Below, one piece after another: positions 2,659 to 15,058 of a stretch of 26,628 bases of DNA. The notes beneath the pieces were generated by a model, which saw nothing but the letters and a program-made list of their open reading frames with translations, had not been told where the DNA came from and did not search any database. A program made the position numbers and the translations under genes. How positions within the stretch are numbered: position 1 is the first letter of the stretch; every line of letters begins with the position of its first letter. This stretch comes from a virus. Where the stretch lies: positions 1 through 26,628 of the IMG/VR virus record IMGVR_UViG_3300033154_000226; one strand, 5' to 3'.

Positions 2659-3993
2659 TTACGTGCCGTCTCCCCACGTCGGTTTCTTCCAATACGATTC
2701 GAACGGCTTCCAATCTCGCGTTACGTTTGTTGCTGCTCGATTCAAAACTACGTTGTATTGAGTTTCCTGGACAATAATCCCGTCGTATCCCATAGCGGTT
2801 GCGAGTTCGCCTAAATCGAATATACCCGCTTCGCTCATCTCCTTGTAAAACGTATTTTCGAGGGCTTGAAGGTCTTTGAAATCTATAATCCTAGCGCCGC
2901 GTTTCCATTTAATCGCTATGATTTCTGCGTCACGTCCGCCGAATACTCTAGCGATTTCGACTCCTGAATTACCTTGCAAGTGCGCAAATTCGCTTACGTC
3001 GGATAACGCCATGTAAGTTCCGTCGCCGTAAACCCCAGCGCCGCCCCTGTGGATTGAATCATCCACATAACTTTTTACGAACCGTTTTTCGGGGACTCCC
3101 CGCAAATACGCTGGACCAGGTGTCGCTTCCAGTTCTGCTGCCGTCATGCTCGTAGGTTTTCCGTGGTATCCCTGACGTTTGTAAAGGCGCTCCAAGTTTC
3201 CGTTCGCTGCGTGATCTGATCCCGGAGTATACCCGCGTCGTCCGTCGGGATGTTTATGGCGGTTTAACATCGCCCTAAATTGCTCACGGGTTGAACCCAC
3301 CGGAGTAAAGTCATCGGCTAAAAACGATATATCGTCGGAAACGAAACGAGGCTCTGCAACGCCCGACTGGCGCTTCTTCGGGAACTTGTTCCGCTGGGCA
3401 ACCTGGCCAAATCGTTTCGACACAAGTTGGCCTCGCTGGATTTTACCGTCCAACAGCATTTGCCCCAGGTGCGCATCTCGCCCGCCTCGTTGGACCAACT
3501 GGTTACCGATTTCCTTCGAAGTCAGTTTCCGAGCCTTCCCAGGAGCGTCGGGGAAACAGAGGCAGGACGGATGCAACGGACTAAAAACTTCGTGCGCCCT
3601 GGACTTGCGCCCGTGCTCAAGCAAGCACGCTGCGCACGCGGACGAGTTGGCTGTCCAAACCCAAAAATCGGGAGCGGCCTGTCGGATGGGCTCCATAATG
3701 TCGGCGGAAAACTGGGACAAAACCGAGGCCTTAGCGTAACGCGCACTCGAGCCTCGGAGCGCTTTCAACGTCCTTGCGCCGAGCGGTTTCGGAGCAGACA
3801 ACGGGCTAATTCCCGTCAACTGAGTCACACGTTTTCGAGCGTTACGGTCCAGCGCATCGAGGAAACGAACCTCCTGATTGATGCCCTTAATCGAACCTGC
3901 CTCCAGGTGGATTATTAGGCGGTCAACAGAACCGCGAGCCGCATCACGAGCGACCCTTGCGACGCGGACGGCCTCGCCCGGATTCGTCGCCAT
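2659..3993 (-). CDS. MuF-like minor head protein fused to an ADP-ribosyltransferase-like domain
   Basis: This 444-aa protein joins two parts. Residues 1-150 are a MuF/SPP1 gp7-like head morphogenesis domain with the typical C120-xx-C123 and the HPSCLC cluster (141-146). Residues about 240-430 look like an ADP-ribosyltransferase fold: LRG at R298, the G-x-G-x-Y strand GDGTYMA (323-329), and a final GYDGIIVQ strand running into YNVVLNRAA (402-421). Such domains in MuF proteins are thought to be carried in the capsid and act on host targets. A canonical ExE pair is not clear (Q409, E410 are nearest), so catalytic activity is uncertain. The start overlaps the portal stop as TAATG, so translation is coupled to the portal. 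Confidence 0.8.
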   Translation of the reverse strand: MATNPGEAVRVARVARDAARGSVDRLIIHLEAGSIKGINQEVRFLDALDRNARKRVTQLTGISPLSAPKPLGARTLKALRGSSARYAKASVLSQFSADIMEPIRQAAPDFWVWTANSSACAACLLEHGRKSRAHEVFSPLHPSCLCFPDAPGKARKLTSKEIGNQLVQRGGRDAHLGQMLLDGKIQRGQLVSKRFGQVAQRNKFPKKRQSGVAEPRFVSDDISFLADDFTPVGSTREQFRAMLNRHKHPDGRRGYTPGSDHAANGNLERLYKRQGYHGKPTSMTAAELEATPGPAYLRGVPEKRFVKSYVDDSIHRGGAGVYGDGTYMALSDVSEFAHLQGNSGVEIARVFGGRDAEIIAIKWKRGARIIDFKDLQALENTFYKEMSEAGIFDLGELATAMGYDGIIVQETQYNVVLNRAATNVTRDWKPFESYWKKPTWGDGT

Positions 3994-11734: not shown

Positions 11735-11809
11735 TGGCAGGCGCGGAAGGAATCGAACCCCCTAATCCGGTGTTGGAAGCCGGTGTTTTGCCATTTAAAC
11801 TACGCGCCC
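11735..11809 (-). tRNA. tRNA-Trp (anticodon CCA)
   Basis: The minus strand folds into a full cloverleaf of 72 nt plus an encoded CCA. The acceptor is GGGCGCG with CGCGCCT (one G-U at 1-72), and the D-arm is GTTT with AAAC. The anticodon stem CCGGC with ACCGG has one C-A mismatch at 31-39, the loop is TTCCAAC giving anticodon CCA, and the T-arm has TTCGATT. Discriminator G73 is right for tRNA-Trp, and the body resembles E. coli tRNA-Trp. tRNA-Trp is a common tRNA of actinophages. It is the last member of the RNA locus that starts at promoter 12386. Confidence 0.93.
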
Positions 11810-11821
11810 TGGAAAAGAAAA

Positions 11822-11953
11822 GGAAAATCCGGATTTGAACCGTGAACATCGGGAGCGAGTTTCGAACCTCTCTCCTCCTGCCTCGCCTACGCCGGTTGCA
11901 ACCAGCGTCGTATGTCGCCTACTTCTACGACTGTCGCTAAGCGATAATTTCCC
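11822..11953 (-). ncRNA. Putative tRNA-like multibranched RNA
   Basis: This 132-nt stretch lies between the tmRNA-like element and tRNA-Trp and has no credible gene. The ends GGGAAAT and ATTTTCC form a 7-bp acceptor-like helix with a G-U at position 3. Just inside the 3' strand is a T-loop-like CGG-TTCAAAT-CCG hairpin, and between them are hairpins GTCGTA/TACGAC, GCTGG/CCGGC (loop TTGCAA) and an 8-bp stem with one mismatch around TTCGAA. No D-arm or anticodon arm fits a standard tRNA. The helices are seen in sequence; calling it an RNA gene is inference. Confidence 0.4.
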
Positions 11954-11955
11954 AG

Positions 11956-12035
11956 TGGAGGTGCGGGGAGTCGAACCCCGGTCCTCGATAGTGCCCCGTT
12001 GAGGCCTTAAATCGAGTCGAAACCGCTTCACCCCC
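11956..12035 (-). ncRNA. tmRNA tRNA-like domain lacking the mRNA-like region
   Basis: This 80-nt element carries both ends of a tmRNA head. The acceptor stem is GGGGGTG with CACCTCC, with G3-U70 and discriminator A73, the alanine identity set. The D-loop reads GGTTTCGACT, as in actinobacterial tmRNA, and the T-arm is CGGGG-TTCGACT-CCCCG. A 6-bp helix CTCGAT/ATCGAG occupies the place of tmRNA P2. Normal tmRNA has over 250 nt here with the tag frame and pseudoknots; this one has 21 nt with a small GCCTC/GGGGC hairpin. CCA is not encoded. It could be an SmpB- and AlaRS-binding decoy, half of a split tmRNA, or a decayed gene. Confidence 0.75.
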
Positions 12036-12040
12036 GAGAT

Positions 12041-12215
12041 CGAAGATTTAGATAACGGGCGATGTGCGAGCCGTACCTTTAGGTCCCGCGCTTTTTACCG
12101 CCCCCGTTCAGTTGGACTTCCAGTTGCTCGCCCTGCATTCAGGCCTGTTTTAAGAGGTAACCTGTCCTCGAGTTATTTGGTAAAAGCGTGTTATCGCCCG
12201 TTAGTTAAATCTTCG
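12041..12215 (-). ncRNA. Structured RNA closed by a 23-bp stem
   Basis: Arms 12193-12215 and 12041-12063 pair over 23 bp with only a 2-nt internal mismatch, and enclose 129 nt. Inside are a 6-bp helix (12126-12131 with 12066-12071) and small hairpins such as CCTG-AATG-CAGG. A 19-codon frame beginning MQGEQLEVQL lies within, without a ribosome site. The element begins next to the long hairpin at 12216 and ends 5 nt before the tmRNA-like element. It has no match to RNase P, SRP or group I intron core motifs that I can recognise. Confidence 0.6.
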
Positions 12216-12342
12216 AATCGAAAAAGTTTAGCGAGCGGGCTTCGGCTGCGCGTCTAGCGGTCGTATCGCCGGGGACGTCTTGCGCCTCGCCCTGCTGGTT
12301 GTCGTAGATGGCCGGTGGCCCGCTCGATAAACCTTTTCGATT
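12216..12342 (-). ncRNA. Structured RNA closed by a 25-bp stem
   Basis: Arms 12318-12342 and 12216-12240 pair over 25 positions with one G-U and one mismatch, and enclose 77 GC-rich nt. Its 3' arm abuts the 5' arm of the next long hairpin with no gap, so the two stems could stack. It begins about 37 nt after the predicted start of the transcript from the promoter at 12386. There is no credible reading frame. Function is unknown. Confidence 0.6.
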
Positions 12343-14942: not shown

Positions 14943-14986
14943 GGCGGATTTCTGGCCCGCATAGACTGCCGTCTCGACTACCCCAG

Positions 14987-15058
14987 CCCCGGAAGGAAGA
15001 TTCGAACTCCCAATTCCGGGTCCAAGGCCCGGCGTGTTCCCAATTACACCACTCCGGG
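14987..15058 (-). tRNA. tRNA-Gln (anticodon TTG)
   Basis: The minus strand folds as a 72-nt cloverleaf: acceptor CCCGGAG with TTCCGGG, D-arm GTGT/ACAC with the AATTGG loop typical of actinobacterial tRNA-Gln, anticodon stem CCGGG/CCCGG, and T-arm GGGAG-TTCGAAT-CTTCC. Discriminator G73 fits tRNA-Gln, and CCA is not encoded. The 7-nt anticodon loop reads CCTTGGA, so with the perfect 5-bp stem the anticodon is TTG and position 33 is C instead of the nearly universal T. Shifting by one would read TGG (Pro) but breaks the stem. Confidence 0.88.

Follow-up and report, generated by a model that had tools for sequence, protein, structure and literature searches.

A tag-less tmRNA head of 80 nucleotides on a viral contig and its relatives in other phages

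The locus described here raises the question of why a virus would carry only the head of a transfer-messenger RNA (tmRNA), that is, the tRNA-like domain (TLD) without the part that specifies a tag. Trans-translation, the pathway served by tmRNA, is a nearly universal bacterial rescue pathway. The locus is found in the viral record IMGVR_UViG_3300033154_000226 of IMG/VR, the 26,628 nucleotides of which are together called the window, and comprises an RNA of 80 nt without CCA on the minus strand (12035-11956). One phage RNA consisting of the TLD only, that of Mycobacterium phage DS6A, is already known, and the 80-nt RNA belongs to this kind. Apparently new are its frequency, the conservation of its structure and the retention of the charging pair. 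The relatives number at least 172 unique sequences, drawn from many phages that are not related to one another; they retain the structure by compensatory change and retain the alanine-charging pair as well. This suggests that phages have repeatedly taken to acting against ribosome rescue, or through it. As some carriers have named hosts (phages Riptide, Shaeky, BRock, LuckySocke and phiPsal1), the family is open to testing now.

Anatomy of the 80-nt RNA

The 80-nt RNA is a complete tmRNA TLD. The Rfam model RF00023 matches the window at 12035-11953 over model positions 1-374 with 68.6 bits (gathering score 47, E 5.3e-25), and in the alignment 15 nt of the RNA replace 306 model positions. Read directly, the RNA is GGGGGUG / AAGCGGUUUCGA / CUCGAU / UUAAGGCCUCAACGGGGCACU / AUCGAG / GAC / CGGGG UUCGACU CCCCG / CACCUCC / A. 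All seven pairs of the acceptor (GGGGGUG/CACCUCC) form, including G3-U70, and A73 is present. When the RNA is read as acceptor, D-loop and P2, the D-loop is GGUUUCGA and GAC is a short linker; P2 has 6 bp and the T-stem 5 bp. The predicted fold is in accord with this reading and places a further 5-bp hairpin, GCCUC-AAC-GGGGC, in the P2 loop; the stability of the fold is by itself only modestly unusual (z -2.0). The CCA end is not encoded, CUCCA being followed by CUG, so that the host must add it.

A standard tmRNA (SsrA, RF00023) has the same acceptor with G3-U70 and A73, the GGNTTCGAC D-loop, P2 and the T-arm. The standard molecule, however, also has pseudoknots, a resume codon and a tag frame. 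All three are missing from the 80-nt RNA, and RF00023 has no match elsewhere in the record. Because this mRNA-like domain is absent, the 80-nt RNA is not a standard tmRNA. It is not a tRNA either: the anticodon arm and D-arm are lacking, ARAGORN makes no call, no RF00005 match is listed at or above the gathering score, and tmRNA is the best family of the clan. The original prediction had proposed that both TLD halves are joined within 80 nt into a tag-less head, and had suggested the Rfam tmRNA and tRNA models as a check. As judged from its sequence, the element is confirmed as a tmRNA head that lacks the tag and has the features needed to be charged with alanine and bound by SmpB. The minus strand, the inner hairpin of the P2 loop and the unencoded CCA had been overlooked in that prediction, which mentioned neither the DS6A precedent nor the size of the family.

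Several known RNAs resemble the 80-nt RNA. The DS6A RNA (tmID 11587) is described as a TLD-only tmRNA, and DS6A is the only phage case named in PMC4131195 and PMC11915505. The DS6A RNA and the 80-nt RNA, likened here by published description, are both phage RNAs close to a bare TLD with the halves in standard order. The 2025 tmRNA database holds 9 standard-order tag-less sequences in all (PMC11915505). In organelles, the permuted mitochondrial tmRNAs and the plastid genes of about 65 bp in Mallomonadaceae have likewise kept the TLD and lost the coding part (PMC11915505), but these are organelle genes serving the organelle, usually permuted in mitochondria, whereas the present RNA is viral. Full-length phage tmRNAs have the same head and are also phage genes; they differ by the tag frame, and Streptomyces phage Riptide has both kinds. 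Permuted tmRNAs (RF04321, RF01849; Ruegeria phage RpAliso) share the T-arm and acceptor end, with 29 nt identical. These have a tag frame, and in them the 3' half precedes the 5' half, while in the 80-nt RNA the 5' half comes first. Identity with a permuted tmRNA was rejected on account of this order and of an RF04321 score of 24.6 bits against a cut-off of 47. The weak RF04321 match lies at 11862-11983, where it covers the 3' part of the element together with the sequence beyond it, and possibly reflects the shared T-arm alone.

Relatives in other phages

Pattern scans of IMG/VR found the relatives, mostly 77-80 nt long, in at least 215 loci. The strict pattern matches 15 contigs, a relaxed pattern gives at least 120 matches, and a pattern with the C of the D-loop changed adds 77 contigs. 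A short class of 61-70 nt lacks the inner hairpin; for this marine-type class no named-phage match was found. With a longer P2 loop (RNAs of 92-115 nt) 23 further contigs match, at least one of which (L149) resembles a chance match to tRNA sequence. Four variants of 104-115 nt (L144, L148, L150, L156) have in the P2 loop an AAGCCCA-like stretch resembling the P2/PK1 start of ordinary tmRNA, and are possible intermediates. One contig (G033) has two tag-less copies. In 257 Gb of prokaryote genomes the strict pattern has a single match, at 150-228 of a small contig in an archaeal metagenome bin (L020). To our knowledge SmpB is not expected in archaea, and the contig is therefore likely to be a misbinned virus.

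Named carriers are the Streptomyces phages Shaeky, pSt2308, Riptide, BRock, LuckySocke, GiJojo, Alone3 and Tomas, and Pontimonas phage phiPsal1. They score 52-79 bits with the covariance model of 16 sequences described below. The tag-less RNA is not annotated as such in their records, and ARAGORN does not call it in the loci scanned. All of them infect Actinobacteria, named phages being a biased sample.

The loci fall into 82 groups, no two of which have a protein in common at 50% identity or above in the DNA examined, and each group was represented by one sequence. Whereas DS6A is a single named phage case, the present family spans these 82 groups and has a recurrent motif, UAARRCC...GG..A at the end of P2, in 60 of them; the D-loop pattern GGNTT-GA is common to the family. 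Each of P2 pairs 1-6 can form in 85-98% of the group sequences, compared with 39-44% in shuffles for pairs 2-6, and each of pairs 2-6 occurs as six pair types. The T-stem is paired in all 114 unique sequences compared. When 52 diverse sequences were aligned, the acceptor came out 1-2 columns out of register in many rows, and the model was therefore built on 16 sequences of equal length. In the resulting gap-free alignment 97.6% of the cells are paired, against 66% after shuffling and 40-54% after sliding; 117 cells are changed on both sides, against 33 in shuffles; and the covariation score is 0.83, against 0.17 shuffled and at most 0.16 slid. These controls do not fully remove relatedness, although the slid control and the per-group count agree with each other. 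The covariation in homologues on which the original prediction had staked its reading is thus strong, and the structure is under selection in the family.

The covariance model of these 16 relatives, built with the window left out (R1), scores the window element at 75 bits (E 4.8e-16). Over 48 test loci, R1 gives members 45.4-93 bits and tRNA-Ala and other non-members at most 32.5 bits. A chance match for the window element is excluded by its R1 score and by the lack of any R1 match at E<=0.1 in 253 kb of other phage DNA.

The same comparisons bear on two origins of the RNA. Integrating elements do use the 3' ends of tmRNA genes, and in Gordonia phage BetterKatz a match to the 3' end adjoins the integrase, so that the element might be thought a decayed tmRNA gene or an integration-site (attP) remnant. 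An attP copy, however, comprises the 3' end only, as in Pseudomonas phage PA_L9 and, judged by the matched part and the adjoining integrase, in BetterKatz. Here both halves are intact and joined, and compensatory changes run across the 82 phage groups. The origin as a remnant is refuted by these two facts and retains next to no credibility; the intact pairings had already been held against simple decay in the original prediction. That prediction had also allowed for a separate tag RNA. The 80-nt RNA would then be one half of a two-piece tmRNA, the tag part lying, for example, in the structured stretch at 12040-12342, which folds strongly (z -5.4). In almost every relative, however, a short hairpin caps P2, and the stretch has no tmRNA match, so that a separate tag part is unsupported and very improbable.

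Alanyl-tRNA synthetase recognises its RNAs through the identity element G3-U70. As most family patterns required U70, position 70 was tested apart. An exact-pattern scan of all IMG/VR, with GGGG, C69 and the D-loop fixed, found no locus with any base other than U at position 70, while an otherwise closely similar pattern with U70 has 72 unique sequences. In the family, pairs 4-69, 5-68 and 6-67 of the acceptor are free to vary, and the D-loop tolerates change, relaxation of one base being the source of the 77 loci added above. U70 thus appears to be fixed, which argues that charging matters. Charging alone, through G3-U70 and A73, would suffice if the RNA were an alanine donor for a reaction outside translation, such as that of a tRNA-dependent ligase. 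The SmpB-type D-loop and P2 would then be superfluous, and no conserved neighbouring enzyme is seen across the family, which makes such a donor a distinctly improbable explanation.

Possible action on trans-translation

The most likely reading, which we hold at somewhat better than even, is that the phage RNA, once charged with alanine, associates with SmpB and EF-Tu and acts as a competitor of host tmRNA, thereby damping or diverting trans-translation. The RNA would be transcribed together with its neighbours and trimmed like a tRNA, with CCA supplied by the host. Host alanyl-tRNA synthetase would charge it through G3-U70, and host SmpB and EF-Tu-GTP would bind it. It would then rival host tmRNA for SmpB and stalled ribosomes, and host trans-translation would be damped or diverted during infection. 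As there is no reading frame in the RNA, a degradation tag cannot be added. No SmpB gene was found in the carrier records searched (sets of 18 and 24 with two records shared, many of them fragments), so that host SmpB would have to serve.

Competition with host tmRNA is the best-supported mechanism because of the published precedent. PMC4131195 and PMC11915505, both citing earlier work, state that tmRNA in E. coli is strongly inhibited by a molecule of the DS6A type, and the inhibition step proposed here is taken by analogy from that work; the blocking of trans-translation, raised as a possibility in the original prediction, agrees with it. Two points weigh against the proposal. The DS6A-like molecule is described as inhibiting whether it is chargeable or not (PMC4131195), so that a pure titration of SmpB would not need U70; that U70 is apparently fixed hints at an additional step at the ribosome. 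Furthermore, a full tmRNA accompanies the tag-less RNA in three carriers, namely Riptide (L140, L267), whose full tmRNA is annotated with the tag ANSKFAFALAA, and two contigs (G018, G019). For a simple SmpB sponge this would be self-defeating unless the two were timed apart. Plain titration leaves both the apparent fixation and the co-occurrence unexplained, and there is room for an action on the ribosome.

Such an action could be a rescue without a tag, in which the charged RNA and SmpB enter stalled ribosomes, take the nascent chain and drop off, the product being hydrolysed; ribosomes occupied by the phage would be freed and phage proteins left unmarked. The apparent U70 fixation, in implying that charging and hence peptide transfer matter, is in its favour, the co-occurrence with full tmRNA in three phages fits a separate role, and mitochondrial tmRNA that lacks a tag frame is presumed to remain of use where mRNAs are incomplete (PMC11915505). 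In twelve loci, moreover, the tag-less RNA is found 67-272 nt upstream of the major head protein gene on the same strand. No route is known, however, by which the ribosome would be released once the peptide has passed to a frameless TLD, and the outcome published for E. coli is inhibition. Untagged rescue is rather unlikely, though the most serious of the rivals to competition. A broader proposal, which we put forward tentatively and hold at well under even, is that the tag-less tmRNAs form a class of phage RNA that is widespread and evolves on its own, for which the alanine charge is essential and which would accept nascent chains on the ribosome, beyond soaking up SmpB. This would explain why U70 is apparently never lost and why a tag-less RNA is kept beside a full tmRNA.

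The surroundings of the RNA also invite an explanation outside the ribosome. In most of the twelve capsid loci a head protease gene lies just before the tag-less RNA, phiPsal1 having the identical order, and in another group the RNA starts 3-4 nt after an exonuclease gene. A same-strand site inside operons, with genes often within a few hundred nucleotides on both sides, would suit a tRNA shape that marks where RNase P and RNase Z/E are to cut and so separates neighbouring mRNAs such as those of head protease and capsid. G3-U70, the tmRNA D-loop and P2 would be unneeded for this purpose, yet all are kept, and many copies of the family sit in tRNA arrays; operon punctuation is improbable. A tRNA gene lies within 1 kb of 27 of the 114 unique sequences, tRNA-Trp being the commonest (8), and CCA is encoded in 33 of 137 copies.

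Surroundings in the window

The positions of the features are collected in Table 1. Genes of the 26.6-kb viral contig include those of a portal, a major head protein, a large terminase and a ribonucleotide reductase. The 80-nt RNA sits between the reductase gene and tRNA-Trp, all three on the minus strand. The terminase has no relatives in IMG/VR. Relatives of the reductase were found at 15 viral loci (52-57% identity) and in 2 named phages (43-45%); none of these 17 has a tag-less RNA nearby, R1 giving no match at E<=0.1 in the 253 kb around them. The RNA is therefore not tied to the reductase gene.

Table 1. The 80-nt RNA, its parts and two tRNA genes, in window positions
Feature	Position	Strand	Basis
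Tag-less tmRNA (TLD only), 80 nt without CCA	11956..12035	-	RF00023, 68.6 bits; model R1 (window left out), 75 bits
Acceptor 5' strand GGGGGUG; includes G3 of the alanine identity pair G3-U70	12029..12035	-	Sequence; 7/7 pairs
Linker and tmRNA-type D-loop AAGCGGUUUCGA	12017..12028	-	Sequence; GGNTT-GA common to family
P2 5' strand CUCGAU	12011..12016	-	Pairs with 11984-11989; P2 covaries in family
P2 loop with UAARRCC...GG..A family motif and 5-bp inner hairpin (12001-12005 with 11993-11997); replaces the mRNA-like domain	11990..12010	-	Fold; motif
P2 3' strand AUCGAG	11984..11989	-	Fold; family covariation
T-arm CGGGG-UUCGACU-CCCCG	11964..11980	-	RF00023; family T-stem paired 114/114
Acceptor 3' strand CACCUCC and A73, with U70; CCA unencoded	11956..11963	-	Sequence; no U70 alternatives found in IMG/VR
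tRNA-Trp(CCA), 147 nt downstream of the 80-nt RNA	11735..11809	-	ARAGORN, Rfam
tRNA-Gln(TTG)	14986-15058	-	ARAGORN

Directly 5' of the 80-nt RNA on its strand, the stretch at 12040-12342 contains a pair of long hairpins whose arms are related (24-25 nt, 92% complementary); no RNA family matches it above chance. A likeness of window 11907-11935 to repeats of Ruegeria phage RpAliso failed inspection by eye. The RpAliso record (L002) itself contains at 2875-3181 a permuted tmRNA that is not annotated there (RF04321, 129.5 bits). It is followed at 3206-3809 by four copies of a 24-nt repeat of the GCGCATGCAAGGGCATACTTCTAT type among interrupted-looking tRNA-like sequences, which is possibly an unrecognised intron or insertion.
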